A stretch of 64,000 nt of DNA from Thermococcus sp. MAR1 (lineage in GTDB: Archaea; Methanobacteriota_B; Thermococci; Thermococcales; Thermococcaceae). How positions within the stretch are numbered: the stretch's first letter is position 1; each line of letters opens with the position of its first letter. The notes beneath the pieces were generated by a model, which saw nothing but the letters and a program-made list of their open reading frames with translations, ran no database searches and was not told the origin of the DNA. This document shows, piece by piece, positions 22,040 to 37,835 of this stretch. The stretch spans positions 186,001 to 250,000 of the forward strand of contig NZ_SNUF01000002.1 in the NCBI RefSeq assembly GCF_012027305.1, written 5' to 3'. The translations under genes and the position numbers were made by a program.

Positions 22040-23056
22040 TTGTCCCTTGGGAGGATAGTAATCAGATACGCCATAGTGACCCTCCTGGTGGCCCTCGTTC
22101 TCGGATACGCTATAAAGGGGGTTGTGGAAAAGAGGGCCTACCTTGAGGCCATTGATTTCTTCCAGTACAACCCAAACGCCAAGAATGTAGTGGCCGTGGC
22201 CGAGAGGCTCGGTATGGACCCGATAGAATACTACGTCAAGTATATCGCCCCTAAAAACCACCCCGAGCTGGGAAAGTCGAGTCTCAGGGTCGGTCTGGAG
22301 TACTTGGTGCTCACCTTTAAGGACCTTCTCGGGCCTTCCCGGGAACGGGGCTGGAGCTACCTCTACGGTTTCCTTAAGCCGAGCTGGGGTTTCGTTTACA
22401 ACACCCTTATTTTCCTCGTCATGGTTGAGGTAGCCGTTGTCCTTCTGGCGCTTCTGCTCTCGTTTAGGGCCGTGAAGAACGAGCGCTTCTACGGCTTCCT
22501 TCAAACTGCTGCCAGAACCTTCAACGGCATCCCGGTGTGGTTCTTCGTTGTTCTCTTCTTCCTTCTCATAATCTACTCCCCCATACCGTCCGATCTGGCG
22601 AACGGCCTTAAAGGCTCTGGCTTGAGAATGCTCGCCTATTTTGTCTTTCCTGTCCTCTCCGTGCTTCTCGTTGCCTCATGGGGGCTCGCGGAGGGTATAA
22701 CCGTCGTTATGAGGGAGGAGTTCGGGCAGTTCTACGTTGAAGCAAAGAGGGCGATGGGTCTGCCCGAGAGGAGGGTGAAGAGGCACATCGTGAGGGCCTC
22801 CATAGTTCCGGTAATGCACGTCTGGCTCCAGAACTTCATTGAGATTCAAACGCTGGTTCTCGTCGTTGATTACCTCTTCAAGCTCAACGGTCTGGGGACT
22901 GTACTCGCATCAACGCTCATCATAACCCCTGACAGCGTGTTTTTCTTCCCTGGGACTTTTGCCTTCGTTGTCATGGTGCTGGTTCTTCTGAACTTCCTAG
23001 TCTCGATGACCGTTGAGGTTCTCTCGATAAAGCTGGAACCGAGGGGGACGGCATGA
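22040..23056 (+). CDS. OppB-type ABC permease, orphan pair 1
   Basis: 338 residues with about six membrane helices and a ~90-residue outer loop after helix 1. The permease motif that contacts the ATPase is near EAKRAMGLPERRVKRHIVRASIVPV (~residues 233-257). I accept the TTG start because GGGGGTG stands five bases upstream and the next residues (RIVIRYAIVTLLVAL) make a normal OppB N-terminus. The stop overlaps the next permease by four bases. No binding protein or ATPase is linked, so it must borrow partners or be non-functional. Confidence 0.85.
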   Translation: MSLGRIVIRYAIVTLLVALVLGYAIKGVVEKRAYLEAIDFFQYNPNAKNVVAVAERLGMDPIEYYVKYIAPKNHPELGKSSLRVGLEYLVLTFKDLLGPSRERGWSYLYGFLKPSWGFVYNTLIFLVMVEVAVVLLALLLSFRAVKNERFYGFLQTAARTFNGIPVWFFVVLFFLLIIYSPIPSDLANGLKGSGLRMLAYFVFPVLSVLLVASWGLAEGITVVMREEFGQFYVEAKRAMGLPERRVKRHIVRASIVPVMHVWLQNFIEIQTLVLVVDYLFKLNGLGTVLASTLIITPDSVFFFPGTFAFVVMVLVLLNFLVSMTVEVLSIKLEPRGTA

Positions 23057-24300
23057 GGAGAAGAACGCTCGGTGCGGCAATATTAGTTGCGTTCCTCCTT
23101 TTCACAACTGTCTCCTACGCCACCCTGGATGAGGCCAAGCTCGACAACTGGGACAACTACATCTTCTGGGTTGACTATCCGAGGGGAGCTAAACCAGTGT
23201 GGCTTGGTGACTCGTCCAAAACCGTCGCCTTCAGGGGGTCCCTTGACTACATCGTGACCAGAAGAGCCCCCTCCAACATCCTGCTTGAGGGGAAAGGAAG
23301 GGTGTCCATAACGATATTCCGCCCCGATGGAAAGGTTGTTAAACTTAGGGGGACGATAAACGGCACCACGAGCGTTAACTCGAACGTTGAGCTGGCGCTC
23401 CAGGCGAGGCGCTTTGCCATTGAGGAACTTGGGATGAAACGGGAGGACCTGGCGTTCATAACGCCGGCCCAGGCTCTGTTCATGGACGGGACTAAGAAGC
23501 CCCTTTCCGGAAACTACACCGTTCAGGTCAATCCGGCGGGAGTTAAGGCGGCGATAATTGGCGACACCTACGGTCTCCTCGGCACGGACTACAAGGGCAG
23601 AGATCTGTGGGTGGGCTTCGTCGGTTCGACTGTGAACACGCTGATCCTGGCATCTTTAACGACCTTGCTGATAATAATCGTCGGCCTCTTCCTGGGCATC
23701 GGCTCGGGCTATTACGAGAACCGGTTTGGGGATGCAGTTTCGGTTCTGCTGGAAGCCCTGAACTCCATTCCCTACCTCCCCCTGGCGATAGTGATAATAT
23801 TCGTCCTCTCCTCGACGGGTTCCCACGGCAAGCTTGAGATGGGAACCCTTGAACTGGCCCTCGTGCTGTCCCTGCTCCTCGTCGGGAAGTTTGCGAGTGC
23901 CGTTAAGGGCATCGTCATGCACGAGAAAGTCCAGGAGTACATAGAGTCGGCGAGGGCTTTGGGGGCGGGTGATATGGCCATAATCCTCAGGCATATAATG
24001 AAGGCAGTGGTGCCGTATACCCTCTCCTACTCCACGCTCCTCTTCGCCCAGATGATAGCCATAATCTCGGTACTCGGCCTTTTCCAGATAATCCCCGGTG
24101 TCAACTGGGGCTCCTTTGTGGCCGAAGCTTTTACCCAGAACGCCATCTACACCCTCTGGTGGTGGCCGCTCTCTCCCTCTGTGGCGATAGTTCTGGTGAG
24201 CATCTCCCTCTGTGGCGATAGTTCTGGTGAGCATCGGGCTGACACTTCTCTCGGGCGACTCTTAATCACAGTTGTTCTTAATATATTCCAAGCTTTTTGA
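23053..24300 (+). CDS. OppC-type ABC permease, orphan pair 1, with frameshifted C-terminus
   Basis: 415 residues. After helix 1 there is a ~160-residue outer domain, then the OppC signature LLGTDYKGRDLWVG and five helices with the EYIESARALGAGDMAIILRHIM segment. The end is abnormal. A 31-bp exact tandem duplication (24173-24203 and 24204-24234) shifts the frame, so the last ~30 residues (from SISLCGDSSGEH) do not look like a permease. Removing one copy restores VAIVLVSIGLTLLSGDS and a stop at 24263-24265. Even that is ~15 residues shorter than the sister genes. The tail overlaps the convergent PP-loop gene by 23 bases. Confidence 0.82.
   Translation: MRRRTLGAAILVAFLLFTTVSYATLDEAKLDNWDNYIFWVDYPRGAKPVWLGDSSKTVAFRGSLDYIVTRRAPSNILLEGKGRVSITIFRPDGKVVKLRGTINGTTSVNSNVELALQARRFAIEELGMKREDLAFITPAQALFMDGTKKPLSGNYTVQVNPAGVKAAIIGDTYGLLGTDYKGRDLWVGFVGSTVNTLILASLTTLLIIIVGLFLGIGSGYYENRFGDAVSVLLEALNSIPYLPLAIVIIFVLSSTGSHGKLEMGTLELALVLSLLLVGKFASAVKGIVMHEKVQEYIESARALGAGDMAIILRHIMKAVVPYTLSYSTLLFAQMIAIISVLGLFQIIPGVNWGSFVAEAFTQNAIYTLWWWPLSPSVAIVLVSISLCGDSSGEHRADTSLGRLLITVVLNIFQAF
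24173..24234 (+). repeat. 31-bp exact tandem duplication inside the permease gene
   Basis: Two perfect head-to-tail copies, 24173-24203 and 24204-24234, each starting CTCCCTCTGTGG and ending GGTGAGCAT. Since 31 is not a multiple of three, the second copy moves the reading frame. One matching base extends the repeat on each side. Confidence 0.95.
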
Positions 24301-25093
24301 AGACTAACTCTCTCTGCCATTCCGGGACGTTGGGCTTCGAAAGCTCTTTCTCGGCCTTATCCCTCTCCATGAGACCGTATCTCACGAGCGCCGCTATCCT
24401 CCTCTGCTCGAAGCTGTGGCCGTGAACCTCCCAGTAGCGCTCCAGTGCAGGTCCCAGAACCAGGCAATTGGTGGTGTAGCCGGGTAACTCCGGAAACTCG
24501 AAGGGGAGCTTTCTCAGAATTTCGAGCCTCTCCCTTTCGGTCATCATGGACAGGAGCCTTACCTGGATTACTCCCCCGCTCATGAGCCTGTACGGGTGGT
24601 GGCCGAATGGAAGCTCGTGGCCTGTTATTATGTATCGGTAGCCGTTTCGGAGGGCGTACTTCCTCAGCTTCTCCATCGTTCTCCTGGAGCATCGTCTGCA
24701 GGGGGATTCCCCCTTGAGAAGGGCCTCGCGGAAGATGTCGGAGTAGTCGTAGCGCAGAACCTTGAAGGGAACCTCAAGCGCTTCGGCTATTCTCTGGGCG
24801 TTCTCTATAGCTTCCTTCGCCATTAGGCCGTGGTCGACCATTATCGCCTCCAGTTCCGGAATCTTGTAGGTCTCCTTCGCCAGGTAGAGCGCAACAACGC
24901 TGTCCTTTCCCCCGGAGTAGGCAACGATTGCCTTCTCAACGTCCTTCATGAGCTCTCCAAGCTCGGCACGGATTTTTTCCCTGTCGATTGGATGCCTCAG
25001 ATAAACCTGACACTCCCTGCAGATTGGTTTTCCGTCAATGATGTCTATCTTCGCGGTTCTCTCATCGTGGATGCAGAGCGAGCACTTGAGCAT
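24278..25093 (-). CDS. PP-loop ATP pyrophosphatase family protein (TtuA-like)
   Basis: 271 residues. An N-terminal zinc-finger pattern (C4-x2-C7 and C24-x2-C27) precedes the PP-loop SGGKDS (~residues 60-65). A central CRRC motif (~132-135, SPCRRCSRR) is placed like the catalytic Cys pair of TtuA/Ncs6 tRNA 2-thiolation enzymes. The TtuA C-terminal zinc ribbon is absent, so a distinct tRNA-modifying or other adenylating role is possible. There is no Shine-Dalgarno; a minus-strand TATA TTTTTAAA lies ~26 bases upstream (25114-25121), implying a leaderless mRNA. Confidence 0.8.
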   Translation of the reverse strand: MLKCSLCIHDERTAKIDIIDGKPICRECQVYLRHPIDREKIRAELGELMKDVEKAIVAYSGGKDSVVALYLAKETYKIPELEAIMVDHGLMAKEAIENAQRIAEALEVPFKVLRYDYSDIFREALLKGESPCRRCSRRTMEKLRKYALRNGYRYIITGHELPFGHHPYRLMSGGVIQVRLLSMMTERERLEILRKLPFEFPELPGYTTNCLVLGPALERYWEVHGHSFEQRRIAALVRYGLMERDKAEKELSKPNVPEWQRELVFKKLGIY

Positions 25094-25124
25094 GTTGGAA
25101 GAAAAGAGGCGAATTTTAAAAAGG

Positions 25125-25808
25125 TTATTTTCTCAGCTTCGGGAACTTTGAACGAAGTTTTTCGGGAGCTTTCTTGGCTTTCTCAACGGTTTCCTCGGTT
25201 TTCTTTTTCCCCTTTCTGGTGGCGAAAAAGCCCACCGTGGCTATAGCGTTCCTCAGCAGTATTCCACGGTTGTTTCTGGCTATGAACCAGCCAAAGAGCA
25301 GTCCAAAGGCTAGCCCGGCGAGCCAGAGGGAGAGGATGATGATGTTCACGCTCATGCCGCTTGGGCTGAGTGTTACCGAGAAAGCCTTGTATGCGAGCGC
25401 AAACGCCACAACGAAAATCGTTTCCAGCAGTATCGATAGCTTGGTGGCCATCCCGATTATTCTCAGAACCCTGCTATCTTCCGTGTACTCCTCTATGATT
25501 CTCTGGTCGTGGAGGCCGTAGATTAGGGTCTTAGTAATGTTTGCCCCGCTCCTGAAGGCGAGAAAGCCAAAGAATGCCGCGCTCCAGCTGGCCCCCCAGA
25601 GCTTGAGGAATGCCCAAGCCCCAACGGCTATCCAGGCCAATGTGTAAATCCTCTCGATACCCTTCTTTTCGTTCTCCGGTACGTCCACTCTTAAAACCTT
25701 CCTCCACGTCACCCCGGCGATGCTGCCAAAGGTTCTCATCAGAATCAGGGATAGGTTGATGAAGAGGAACGCCGTCAGGAATACGAAGGCCAATATCTCA
25801 CGTATCAT
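25125..25808 (-). CDS. Membrane protein of unknown function
   Basis: 227 residues with about five hydrophobic segments (residues ~4-26, 50-68, 70-85, 112-136, 150-176) and a strongly basic Lys-rich tail (GKKKTEETVEKAKKAPEK) that should face the cytoplasm. I do not recognise a family. The start ATG lies shortly after a minus-strand TATA-like TTTTTATAACC at ~25819-25829, so the transcript may be leaderless. It separates the PP-loop gene from the second orphan permease pair. Confidence 0.75.
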   Translation of the reverse strand: MIREILAFVFLTAFLFINLSLILMRTFGSIAGVTWRKVLRVDVPENEKKGIERIYTLAWIAVGAWAFLKLWGASWSAAFFGFLAFRSGANITKTLIYGLHDQRIIEEYTEDSRVLRIIGMATKLSILLETIFVVAFALAYKAFSVTLSPSGMSVNIIILSLWLAGLAFGLLFGWFIARNNRGILLRNAIATVGFFATRKGKKKTEETVEKAKKAPEKLRSKFPKLRK

Positions 25809-25858
25809 CGCTATCCCCGGTTATAAAAATGGGCGAGAGATAATTAACTTTTCTCCTC

Positions 25859-27142
25859 TTAACGCTCCAGGAAACGCCTTTCTATGTCCCTGGCTATTGC
25901 GACGAAAGAGAGTGTCATCAGGCCTATTGAGATGCCAACGGGCAGGACGTGCCACCATGAGAGCCTGTAAACGGTGTTCTCCCTTATGCTCTGGCTCATC
26001 AGCGTTCCCCAATTGAATCCTGGAACGACGTTGAAAAAGCCGAGAAGTGTTATCAAAGCTATTATTCCCGGGACGGTGAGGGCGAATTGGTAGAGTGTGT
26101 AGGGAATCAGCACCTTTGAGACATGCCTCGTTAGTATCCACCGTGAGCTTCCACCCAGGGCCTTAGAAGACTCGATGTACTCTTTTCTGAGCTCTTCATC
26201 CACTATTGAGCGTATGTTGCGGGAGAGGTCACCAACGCTGAGAATTCCGAGCACCACTGCCAAGAGGATTGGGTTTGTTGATATTGTGTACGTGTAGTCG
26301 TTGATGTCAGAGATTATTATGATGAGCCCTATCGCTACCGGAAGGAGTGGCATGACAGTTAAAAGGTGCGAGACAAAGTTGAGAGCCTTTCCAAGCCCAC
26401 TCGATAGAACGCTGAGCATTCCGAATATCATTGCCAAGCCCATTGCGAAGAGGGCTCCGATAACCGCTACTGCAATCGTTTCCCTCATGCCCCACAGATA
26501 TCCCGCCCATATGTCCCTGCCGAAGTTGTCCGTTCCCATCACTCCGTAGCTTTCCCCTTGGATGTATACCCTTGGAGTCGAGTTGTACTGTCCCAAAGGA
26601 GTAAGCACTATCAGGTACGTGCCTTTAACGGTTTCTGGGTTCAGAATGCAGTCCTTTTTGGGCTTGGAGAAAATTACGTTAAGACCGTTCCAGAAGAGGA
26701 GTTGGTCGGAGGTAGTTTCAATCCCGCACTTTTCTCTTGCGATCTCCCTGAGGACTATCGAATTCCTGAGGTTCAGCTCCCTGGGTATGTGGGTGTTCCA
26801 CATAGTGTACTCGTTTCCCTCTGGATCCTTTATGGTTACCCGATAGCTTTCAAACCTCTCAAGAACGATTATTATGCCCTTGGGGGCAACCTTGTAGTGG
26901 AAGTCGTATTTGAACACGTAGGAACCGTTTTCCTTGGTTGCGGTCAGCCATTCGGTTTTGGGGAGATTGGTCAGTTTCCCGTACCACCCGGGCGGCACGT
27001 TCTTGGGATTGAGATGCCAGTAAAGAATGCTGTCCCAGTTCTCTATATCCTTGGGATTTACCCAACTGGGCCCTATCAGAGAAACCGCTATCATTGTCGT
27101 GATTACTATTACGGAGAGCGGGAGGGCCTTATCTTTAAACAT
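25859..27142 (-). CDS. OppC-type ABC permease, orphan pair 2
   Basis: 427 residues, intact. One N-terminal helix (~7-27), a ~170-residue outer domain containing NWDSILYWHLNPKNVPPGWYG, then the signature MGTDNFGRDIWAG and five helices. The coupling segment EYIESSKALGGSSRWILTRHV is present and it ends IARDIERRFLER as expected. It is homologous to the OppC genes at 23053 and 35405. The start overlaps the 3' end of its OppB partner by eight bases. No ATPase or binding protein is adjacent. Confidence 0.9.
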   Translation of the reverse strand: MFKDKALPLSVIVITTMIAVSLIGPSWVNPKDIENWDSILYWHLNPKNVPPGWYGKLTNLPKTEWLTATKENGSYVFKYDFHYKVAPKGIIIVLERFESYRVTIKDPEGNEYTMWNTHIPRELNLRNSIVLREIAREKCGIETTSDQLLFWNGLNVIFSKPKKDCILNPETVKGTYLIVLTPLGQYNSTPRVYIQGESYGVMGTDNFGRDIWAGYLWGMRETIAVAVIGALFAMGLAMIFGMLSVLSSGLGKALNFVSHLLTVMPLLPVAIGLIIIISDINDYTYTISTNPILLAVVLGILSVGDLSRNIRSIVDEELRKEYIESSKALGGSSRWILTRHVSKVLIPYTLYQFALTVPGIIALITLLGFFNVVPGFNWGTLMSQSIRENTVYRLSWWHVLPVGISIGLMTLSFVAIARDIERRFLER

Positions 27143-28140
27143 CTCTCCTCACCCTTGGGTCAAGTTTTGAGTAGAGAACCTCCATCACGGACGAGTTTAC
27201 GAAGTACAGGAACGCCATGACTAAGGCCACAAAAAAGAGGAGTTCTGGCCTGAAGACAAAGGAAAAAGCAACAACGTGAATTCTCCTCAGATAGCTCCAC
27301 ACGTAGTCATACTGCCTCCCCGCTGACGTTGCAAAGACGTAGCCTATGCCGTTGACGTTGAAGAGCTTCTCAACTGCCATTCCGTTTACCAGCAGGTTCA
27401 GGAAGTTGTAGCTTGTGAAGGTCAAAAACGACGGGAGAACCGTTCTCAGGAGCTTCTTCATTATTTTCCTGTCGGGAAGTCCCTTCAGCACGTCCGCGAA
27501 GAAGTGCTCCTCGTGCATCTCCTTCCTCACAAGCGTCCTCACGTTGAACGCATAGATCACAACGTTGGCGAAGGTCAGCGTGAGGACGGGAATCAGCATA
27601 GCGTTGAGATACGTTCCGAATCCCAACTCGTCGTTGAGCCTTGCCCTCGCTATGTAGGTCATGTAGTCTATGGTTGATAACCCGGTTCGCCACCAGAGTA
27701 CCCAGATTAGAAATACTCCCCAGAACCAGCCCGGAATCGCGGAGAACACCGGGGCAAGGGTGGTCAAGATTCTGTCCGATCGTTTTCCGTTGTATCCCGC
27801 CTTAAGCCCCCAGTAGAGGCCGAGGACGAACACGAGCGCCATTGTGAGGGCGAGTACAACCATCGTCGTGAGGATGGCCCCCTCGGGACTTATCATGTAC
27901 ATCTCTATAAACTGCTCTCTGGCTTCACTTTCCCTGAACAGGGAGATGGAATATTCAAAGTACTCTCTGGTTTTCTTAAGTCCCTCTTCAAGCGTGAACG
28001 GTTTCGTCTGGATGAACGTGTGCCTGCTCCTCCACTCCCAGACCCTGTGCTCTGCTCCAGCAATTATCATCCCGGTTATGATGAGGGCAAGAAAAAAGTA
28101 CGACAATGTTACGAGCTATGTATTTAATAGCCCGTGACAT
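27135..28140 (-). CDS. OppB-type ABC permease, orphan pair 2, with an apparent 5' frameshift
   Basis: The intact frame runs from 28106 (a TTG with no Shine-Dalgarno) and gives 323 residues with the usual OppB helices and RTLVRKEMHEEHF/KGLPDRKIMKK coupling region. Upstream is a much better start: ATG 28138-28140 with AGGTGATAG directly before it, encoding MSRAIKYIARNIVVLF, a typical OppB N-terminus. It is one base out of frame. Removing one T from the six-T run (plus-strand A-run 28092-28097) joins it to LALIITGMIIAG. So the gene is probably frameshifted by slippage, by mutation or by sequencing error. Confidence 0.8.
28092..28097 (-). other. Six-base homopolymer at the frameshift point
   Basis: Read on the minus strand this is TTTTTT within GTACTTTTTTCTTGCC. 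Five T would restore one continuous OppB frame from ATG 28140. Confidence 0.8.
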
Positions 28141-34276: not shown

Positions 34277-34337
34277 CCAGTTTTACAATGCTGAAAAAGA
34301 TACATTAAACACGAGCAACCTACGTGGGGGTGGAAAA

Positions 34338-35393
34338 ATGGGGTATCTGAAGTATCTGGTGTTTAGGATCCTGAACGCCATTCTCGTTCTGCTTATAGTG
34401 ACGTTTATTATCTCGGCACTCTTCGTTAAGGTTGCCGAGGAGAGCAACAGATCAAAGATGTACGAGGAACTGATGATGTGGGAAAGGACAGAGGGTGCTA
34501 AAATCAAGCAGAGTCAAGGTTTGGAGGCCTTTGAACAGGCCAAGGCCGCAAAGCAGGCATCTCTTGAGGAGAAATACGAGCTGAACATCCCCTACTGGCA
34601 GAAAGTTTACAAGAAGGCTTTGCGTACATTGCGGCTGGACTTTGGAACGACGAGCATGCCAATCTTTGGAACCAACAACGTCTCGGACATTATCAAGGTC
34701 GCCGTTCCCAGGAGCATCCTCCTGTTCACGACGGCGACGATAATAGTCATCATACTCGGTATCTTCCTTGGAGTCAGGGCGGCAAGACAGGCGGGCAGCG
34801 TCTTCGACAGGGGATTGTCCATCTTCGCGCTGCTCACCTACAGTCTGCCGATGTGGTGGACCGGAATGATGTTCCTCCTGATATTCGCCTTCAAGCTCGG
34901 CTGGTTCCCGCTCAGTTCAATGTTCGACCCACAGCTCACCGGCTGGGCCCACGTTAAGGATGTCCTATGGAAGCTCGCCCTTCCGGTGTTCACCTACGTC
35001 TTCGTTGTGTTCGGCGGTTGGGCATGGACGACCAGGAACATCATGATAGGAACCCTCCAGGAGGACTTCATCATGGCCGCCAAGGCCAAGGGTGTCCCCG
35101 AACACAAGATCATCTACGGCCACGCCCTCCGCGCGGCAGCGCCGCCGATAGTCACCATGATCATCTTCGCCCTCCTCGGTTCGCTCGGAGGTGCTATCAT
35201 CAGTGAGCTCGTCTTCAACTACCCCGGAATGGGCAGGCTCTACTGGGTCGCCCTCCAGCAGAACGAGACCAACCTCCTCATAGGGCTGACGTACTTCTTC
35301 ACCGTGCTCTACCTGACGGGAGTGGTCCTCGCGGACATGATCTACGGATTCCTCGACCCGCGTGTCAAGGTCGGTGCTTCCGCCAAGATGTGA
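34338..35393 (+). CDS. ABC transporter permease, OppB/DppB type
   Basis: 351 residues, six membrane helices. The outer loop after helix 1 (~residues 30-95) is Glu/Lys-rich. The cytoplasmic EAA-like loop is DFIMAAKAKGVPEHKIIYGHALRAAAPPIV in pattern. It ends DMIYGFLDPRVK as normal OppB does. It is the intact reference for the two orphan OppB genes at 22040 and 27135. It starts a co-directional set of four genes with gaps of only 10-12 bases. Confidence 0.95.
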   Translation: MGYLKYLVFRILNAILVLLIVTFIISALFVKVAEESNRSKMYEELMMWERTEGAKIKQSQGLEAFEQAKAAKQASLEEKYELNIPYWQKVYKKALRTLRLDFGTTSMPIFGTNNVSDIIKVAVPRSILLFTTATIIVIILGIFLGVRAARQAGSVFDRGLSIFALLTYSLPMWWTGMMFLLIFAFKLGWFPLSSMFDPQLTGWAHVKDVLWKLALPVFTYVFVVFGGWAWTTRNIMIGTLQEDFIMAAKAKGVPEHKIIYGHALRAAAPPIVTMIIFALLGSLGGAIISELVFNYPGMGRLYWVALQQNETNLLIGLTYFFTVLYLTGVVLADMIYGFLDPRVKVGASAKM

Positions 35394-35404
35394 GGTGATT
35401 CGCT

Positions 35405-36865
35405 ATGAGATGGGTCGACGTCAAAGAAGGATTTAAGGAATTCCTTGAAGAGTTTAAGAGGGAGAAGACCGGCATAGCCGGTGTTATTCTCCTCATCATC
35501 CTTGTCTTGGTTGCACTCACGGCCCCCTACACGACTATGCCCAACCTCCCCGAGAAGTGGAGAAGCTCCGCCTACTGGGAGGACAACCCAAAGAACGTTC
35601 CTCCGAGCTGGTACAACATGTTCACCTCCCAGAAGCTCGTTCCACAGGAGGTTTACTACGCCAACGACCTCAAGATCAGCCACCCGAGCGACACAGTGAC
35701 CATAGTTGAGGCGGATTACCAGTTCCCCGATGGTTATATCCTCGGTCCCCAGGGAATCATTATCAGGGGTCTGAACGTCACGCTGAACGCTCCATCCCAA
35801 GTACCGACGATGGACATATACCTCCTGAGACCCGACGGGAAGAGCATTCCCCTTCTCAAAAACAAGCAGCTCAGCTCCGGCACCACGATCTCCATAGGTA
35901 GGGACAGCACAATCTCGACCAATGTGTACATCTGGCTCGTGAACGTTACTGAGGGCAGGGAGATAACTATGTTCGAGGTTCCCCTTGAGACGATCCTCAT
36001 CAGCGACATGGTCGCCCCGATGTTCGCCAAGGTCGAGCCGGGCATGAACGTGAGCGATATCATAGGCAACCCACAGCCGCTCAACGGCCAGTACAAGCTC
36101 ATAATGAAGATCAACAACCCCGCTCCAAAGCAGAACCAGGTTATCTACGACAACCTCAAGGTCACCTTCCTCGGAAGAAGCTACGGGACTATGGGTACCG
36201 ACTACCTGGGAAGGGATCTCTGGGCAGGAATCATCTGGGGTAGCAGGGTCTCCCTGACAATCGGTGTCCTCGTCTCGGTTCTCAGCACCATAATCGGTCT
36301 CGTTTACGGAGTCACCAGTGCCTACCTGGGAGGAAACGCCGACGAGTTCATGATGCGTATCAACGAAATATTCGCTTCAATACCGAGCCTGCCGATACTT
36401 ATCCTCATAGGAGCCACTCTGGGACACGTCACCCTATGGTTCATAGTCGTACTGCTGGTCATATTCGGATGGATGGGAATAGCAAGGATTGCGAGAAGTA
36501 TGGCACTCCAGATCAAGGAGCAGACGTACATCGAGGCGGCGAGAGCCCTCGGTGCCGGCAACGGAAGGATAATCTTCAAGCACATTCTCCCACAGCTGCT
36601 CCCGTACGCCTTTGCTGTCATAGCCCTCAGCGTTCCGGGCGCGGTTATAGCAGAGGCTTCACTGAGCTTCCTCGGTATAGGTGACCCGAGCGCAGTAACC
36701 TGGGGACAGATACTCAACGCGGCCCAGGCGCAGTCGGCGACGACCAAGGGCTACTGGTGGTGGGTCCTTCCACCCGGGCTTGGAATCGCTGTCGTCGGCC
36801 TTACCTTCGTGCTGATAGGTACGGCCCTCGATAAGATACTCAACCCGAGGCTCAGGAGGCTGTGA
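35405..36865 (+). CDS. ABC transporter permease, OppC/DppC type, with large outer domain
   Basis: 486 residues, well over the ~300 of bacterial OppC. After helix 1 (~residues 22-42) about 210 residues lie outside the cell, beginning with the motif YWEDNPKNVPPSWYN and rich in beta strands and sequons. Then come the OppC signature MGTDYLGRDLWAG, five helices and the coupling loop EAARALGAGNGRIIFKHILPQ. The same outer domain occurs in the two orphan OppC genes of this window. It may help to dock the tethered binding protein. Confidence 0.95.
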   Translation: MRWVDVKEGFKEFLEEFKREKTGIAGVILLIILVLVALTAPYTTMPNLPEKWRSSAYWEDNPKNVPPSWYNMFTSQKLVPQEVYYANDLKISHPSDTVTIVEADYQFPDGYILGPQGIIIRGLNVTLNAPSQVPTMDIYLLRPDGKSIPLLKNKQLSSGTTISIGRDSTISTNVYIWLVNVTEGREITMFEVPLETILISDMVAPMFAKVEPGMNVSDIIGNPQPLNGQYKLIMKINNPAPKQNQVIYDNLKVTFLGRSYGTMGTDYLGRDLWAGIIWGSRVSLTIGVLVSVLSTIIGLVYGVTSAYLGGNADEFMMRINEIFASIPSLPILILIGATLGHVTLWFIVVLLVIFGWMGIARIARSMALQIKEQTYIEAARALGAGNGRIIFKHILPQLLPYAFAVIALSVPGAVIAEASLSFLGIGDPSAVTWGQILNAAQAQSATTKGYWWWVLPPGLGIAVVGLTFVLIGTALDKILNPRLRRL

Positions 36866-36875
36866 GGTGGTATAA

Positions 36876-37835
36876 ATGGCTAAGAACGTGCTCGAAGTTA
36901 AGGACCTCAAGATGTATTACTTCACCAGCAAGGGTGTCGTCAAGGCCGTCGACAACATCTCGTTCAACCTCAAAAAGGGTGAAGTGCTGGGACTTGCCGG
37001 TGAGAGCGGATGCGGCAAGTCCTCCCTTGGTTTTACCCTTATGGGAATGCCGACTCCTCCGGGCAAGATCGTCAGCGGCAGTGTGAAGATTGACGGAAGG
37101 GAGATAGTCGGCCTCCCGGAGGATGTCCTCAGGAAGGAGATTCGCTGGCAGAAGATATCAATGATATTCCAGGGTGCAATGAACGCCCTCAATCCGGTCT
37201 ACACAGTTGGCTATCAGATGACCGAGCCGCTCATGCTCCACAAGGGAATGAGCAAGGATGATGCCCTTGACAGGGCTCAGAAGTACCTCGAGCTCGTCGG
37301 TCTTGACCCGGAAATAGTTTACCGCTACCCGCACGAGCTCTCAGGTGGTATGAAGCAGCGTGTCATCATTGCAACCGCCCTCCTGCTTGAGCCGGAGGTC
37401 GTTATCGCGGACGAGCCGACAACGGCCCTTGACGTCGTTGTTCAGGCGCAGATCATCAACCTCATGAAGAAGCTAAAGAAGGAGCTCGGCCTCTCGATGA
37501 TATTCATCACCCACGACCTTAGTATACTCGCCGAGATCAGCGACAGGGTCGCGATAATGTACGCGGGTAAGATAGTTGAGATAGGCGACAGCGAGAAGGT
37601 CTACTACGAGCCGGCCCATCCGTACACACAGAAGCTCCTCGCGGCAATACCGAGGCTCCACGAGGACGTTGAGAAGCTGGAGTTCATCCCAGGACAGCCG
37701 CCCAACCTCATCACGCCGCCGAAGGGATGCCGCTTCCACCCGAGGTGCCCCTACGCAATGCAGGTTTGTAAGGAGCAGGAACCCGAGCTGAAGGAAGTTG
37801 ATAAGGACCACTACGCCGCATGCTGGCTGCTGTGA
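36876..37835 (+). CDS. ABC transporter ATPase, OppD/DppD type
   Basis: 319 residues. Walker A GESGCGKS (~residues 42-49), signature LSGGMKQR, Walker B VVIADEPTTALD and the switch His in ITHDLS are all present. The C-terminal extension has four Cys (GCRFHPRCPYAMQVC...C), the set that forms an Fe-S cluster in studied DppD/OppD proteins. It pairs with the OppF-type ATPase that follows after 10 bases. Confidence 0.96.
   Translation: MAKNVLEVKDLKMYYFTSKGVVKAVDNISFNLKKGEVLGLAGESGCGKSSLGFTLMGMPTPPGKIVSGSVKIDGREIVGLPEDVLRKEIRWQKISMIFQGAMNALNPVYTVGYQMTEPLMLHKGMSKDDALDRAQKYLELVGLDPEIVYRYPHELSGGMKQRVIIATALLLEPEVVIADEPTTALDVVVQAQIINLMKKLKKELGLSMIFITHDLSILAEISDRVAIMYAGKIVEIGDSEKVYYEPAHPYTQKLLAAIPRLHEDVEKLEFIPGQPPNLITPPKGCRFHPRCPYAMQVCKEQEPELKEVDKDHYAACWLL

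Follow-up and report, generated by a model that had tools for sequence, protein, structure and literature searches.

A 31-bp tandem duplication shifts the C-terminal reading frame of an OppC-like permease gene in the genome assembly of Thermococcus sp. MAR1

In the 64,000-nucleotide stretch of DNA analysed here (the window), which sits in a 410-kb contig of the 53-contig draft genome of Thermococcus sp. MAR1, the 3' end of an OppC-type permease gene carries two exact copies of a 31-bp unit, and the C-terminal frame of the gene is shifted by this duplication. The assembly contains the duplication, the two-copy form departs from an ancestral one-copy state, and the gene is otherwise intact. We consider the most probable explanation to be a single recent spontaneous mutation, namely a tandem-duplication frameshift in an accessory OppC-type permease; on this reading the duplication would be real in the organism.

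The first-pass annotation had described two exact 31-bp copies standing head to tail, and these were recovered at 24172-24233. Copy 1 (24172-24202) and copy 2 (24203-24233) lie on the forward strand within the 3' end of the permease gene, and both read TCTCCCTCTGTGGCGATAGTTCTGGTGAGCA with 100% identity. The next two bases (TC, 24234-24235) extend the repeat match 2 bp past copy 2, giving an array of 64 bp up to 24235. It is the sole exact tandem duplication with a period of at least 12 bp in the window, and an exact two-copy array of this kind is far beyond chance. A third occurrence of the unit was not found in the genome sequence searched, with up to 3 mismatches allowed.

In its present form the permease ORF (23053-24300, forward strand) encodes 415 aa, with the tail shifted from residue 385. 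After removal of one copy the frame reads VSIGLTLLSGDS and ends at a TAA stop at 24263-24265; translation thus bears out the earlier claim that deleting one copy restores the permease frame and an earlier stop. The protein is unchanged to residue 384, after which nine residues (GLTLLSGDS) are replaced by 31 unrelated ones, the one-copy form having 393 residues. The former 3' end of the gene (24234-24265, forward strand), delimited by comparison with eight orthologues, encodes ...GLTLLSGDS followed by TAA and is now out of frame. The description of an unrelated tail running into the convergent gene was accurate in that the shifted ORF overlaps the convergent ORF (24278-25093) by 23 bp, but the change is limited to the last 9 of 393 residues and the final hydrophobic segment is mostly retained. 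In the closest relative, G012, the permease end likewise touches or runs a little into the convergent gene beside it, so such an overlap is not odd in itself. As regards the identity of the protein, BPD_transp_1 (PF00528) matched residues 211-386 with 46.9 bits (E 3.4e-12) against a curated cut-off of 26.4, while the best NCBIfam match, Opp4C, reached 102 bits against a cut-off of 350 and does not give equivalog-level OppC identity. The Pfam and NCBIfam matches, to BPD_transp_1 and OppC-like permeases, agree with the OppC-type assignment proposed earlier, and the affected permease can be regarded as OppC-like on these profiles.

Orthologues with about 75-92% protein identity were compared from eight genomes (G012, G026, G032, G064, G066, G067, G072 and G084). 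All eight carry one copy, and none has the shifted tail. Their C-termini, listed here without matching to genomes, are LTLLSGSSG, LTLLSGPSSD, LTFVSSSPD, LTLLSGKS, LTLLSKTSSD, LTLVSNSSSG, LTLLSDDSLR and LTFLSDEF, and the window permease without its second copy ends in GLTLLSGDS, like the predicted LTLLS... tail of the orthologues. This comparison, which the first-pass annotation had proposed, supports its claim that a duplication shifted the C-terminal frame of the permease. Since all eight orthologues have one copy and the predicted tail, the two-copy state is a derived one, found only in the Thermococcus sp. MAR1 genome. Exact head-to-tail copies that are absent from orthologues are what a tandem duplication would leave.

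Outside the altered tail the permease gene is unbroken, and purifying selection acts on it (dN 0.039, dS 0.254 versus G012); these facts suggest that the event is young. The identity of the copies and the intact state of the gene thus favour the very recent event that had been suggested, and the out-of-frame remainder of the former tail, which is still unbroken, fits it as well. From the identity of the copies, the event may be no older than roughly 40% of the divergence from G012, and possibly very recent, although this bound is weak because the unit is just 31 bp long.

The main alternative to a mutation is that the organism has one copy and that the assembly joined two contigs with a 31-bp overlap but left the overlap unmerged. 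The copies match perfectly at a length of precisely 31 bp, 31 is a usual k-mer size of assemblers, and a k-mer-overlap join of contigs yields an exact duplication of this kind. The genome is also a draft, with three large contigs among the 53 and 11 small ones read that measure 250-736 bp, and with one copy the gene would be normal. However, an exact-duplication scan (threshold of at least 16 bp) of 815 kb of the same genome plus the window (~880 kb, about a 40% sample) gave no other exact tandem duplication, and hence no recurrence with the same period, and no duplication like the array was found in the 460 kb of G012 scanned. A systematic artefact of k-mer joining was rejected on these scans. 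There is no run of N at the array site. Generally poor sequence was rejected as well, as no other gene in the window is frameshifted or broken relative to G012, and an apparent internal stop at 59-60.6 kb was dismissed because it precedes the start codon of a gene that is itself intact. The lack of other duplications in ~880 kb and of other frameshifts in the window indicates that the assembly is generally sound here. Furthermore, one ordinary short read can span all 64 bp of the array, and assemblers more often collapse such repeats than expand them. Of the assembly artefact raised at first pass, the systematic form is therefore unlikely, while a one-off error keeps a minority chance; the odds of a real mutation over such an error are judged to be about two to one.

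The two copies could also be read as a reversible contingency locus, on/off or tail-switching, that slips between one and two copies. Exact short intragenic tandem duplications can revert, as a 60-bp unit in a beta-lactamase gene did at 3.6e-5 (PMC4169377), and in pneumococcal capsule genes phase variation arises from duplications (Waite et al. 2001 and 2003, cited in PMC4022640). Revertibility, however, is a by-product of any tandem duplication, formation of this one was favoured by just 2 bp of homology, and the repeat occurs in none of the eight orthologues. The observed copy-number states are two copies only in the Thermococcus sp. MAR1 genome and one copy in eight other species. A second, one-copy allele was not found on another contig of the genome sequence, a weak result because the 11 small contigs read from C4-C53 (250-736 bp) are wholly N. 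With just two copies, no single-copy allele found in the genome and the repeat in no relative, the reversible switch put forward at first pass found no support. Collapse of the array by slippage is physically possible, but nothing points to an evolved switch. A contingency locus is accordingly very improbable, and slightly more so the specific proposal that the population toggles between one and two copies, and thus between a short and a long permease tail, which would give a hyperthermophilic archaeon a contingency switch based on tandem duplication; reads with both states would make it a rare archaeal case of copy-number switching. A functional role for the longer, shifted tail, as a new allele with an extra C-terminal hydrophobic helix, is scarcely credible. 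The tail does contain a hydrophobic stretch, LGRLLITVVLNIF, which reaches about 1.2 (Kyte-Doolittle, 19-residue window), and the AlphaFold model, built from a shallow alignment, keeps the last helix (373-389) and adds a low-confidence one at 398-414. But the model is poor (mean pLDDT 47.7) and too weak to decide on function, as is that of an orthologue, the last part of the tail is encoded antisense to the final portion of the convergent gene, and the tail is shared by none of the eight orthologues.

On the Kyte-Doolittle scale (19-residue window) the score of the final hydrophobic segment drops from 1.9 to about 1.5, and another segment, moderately hydrophobic, appears at the extreme end. Under a recent spontaneous mutation, most of the last membrane helix would stay, and the protein would be either mildly impaired or lost at little cost. 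We infer any functional effect of the new tail from these features; loss of function is possible, and the frameshift is probably tolerated. Loss without much cost would be understandable if the permease pair is accessory. A DNA match to the end of the permease gene was obtained in just 10 of the 61 genomes of the genus, and in G069 (L067, 5181-5520) the pair is a decayed remnant in which the OppB start is apparently fused to the OppC end by an internal deletion, with a frameshift in addition. The accessory pair has thus decayed independently in another genome, and together these observations indicate that the locus is dispensable.

The only adjoining partner of the affected permease is an intact OppB-type permease (22040-23056, forward strand, 338 aa); the nearest OppD tested is at 36876-37832, within a more typical OppB/OppC/OppD run at 34305-37832. 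The affected pair is therefore best seen as an accessory OppC-like transporter module. The convergent gene (24278-25093, reverse strand) encodes, by its profile matches, a PP-loop ATPase of the TtuA/LarE-like sulfurtransferase superfamily, and occurs at high identity in nearly every examined genome of the genus. It is usually adjoined by a gene for a 227-aa protein (25125-25808, reverse strand), which had no Pfam or NCBIfam match and is carried by 57 of the 61 genomes; apparent stops in this gene in some genomes were dismissed, as the aligned part proved free of stops in the four that were re-aligned (two TGA, two TAA). Relatives differ by rearrangement of the stretch that separates the permease pair from the PP-loop gene (window 24278-28106; L068 3183-5149; L069, L064, L066, L067, L032). 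Another OppB/OppC pair, with about 37-44% identity to the window pair at 25859-28106, stands there in G012, G026, G066 and G069, only fragments in G032 and G067, and no such pair in the window, G064, G072 and G084. The window (25859-28106), G064 and G066 instead have an OppB/OppC pair on the far side of the PP-loop and 227-aa genes, and in G066 (L151, 432-1342) the OppB gene of the neighbouring pair is broken into two frames near residue 94-95, which adds a further frameshift to the permease cluster. A tie between the duplication and this rearrangement was rejected, as G064 and G084 have the same permease-to-PP-loop order and one copy.

In the proposed mutation, 31 bp would have been duplicated head to tail during DNA copying or repair, shifting the permease frame after residue 384, with loss of the nine-residue GLTLLSGDS and gain of the 31-residue tail. 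The one-copy ancestor has a direct repeat of just 2 bp (TC), 31 bp apart, which gives no indication of classic slippage between longer repeats; duplication mediated by microhomology, or slipped re-priming, may have been responsible. The duplication accounts for the odd permease C-terminus and the convergent overlap and has little importance beyond annotation, though the array would illustrate short tandem duplication cleanly in a natural Thermococcus genome. Among the spontaneous mutations known from pyrE of Sulfolobus acidocaldarius, tandem duplications form a documented class (PMC3139894, PMC7785828). They likewise arise de novo and head to tail inside a coding gene, also in an archaeon; they were obtained by laboratory selection, whereas the permease event was read from a genome sequence, with no known selection. 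De novo tandem repeats with units of 9-60 bp have been reported in the beta-lactamase gene penA (PMC4169377). The permease array resembles them in having two tandem copies of similar length that are potentially revertible by slippage, but the penA repeats change a loop and broaden the substrate range under selection, and their reversion was measured, while the permease array shifts a 3'-end frame and is known from sequence alone. In the pneumococcal capsule genes (Waite et al. 2001 and 2003, cited in PMC4022640), a short duplication within an ORF similarly inactivates or alters the gene in a potentially reversible way; switching was observed there, whereas the permease is represented by one sequence with no sign of switching.
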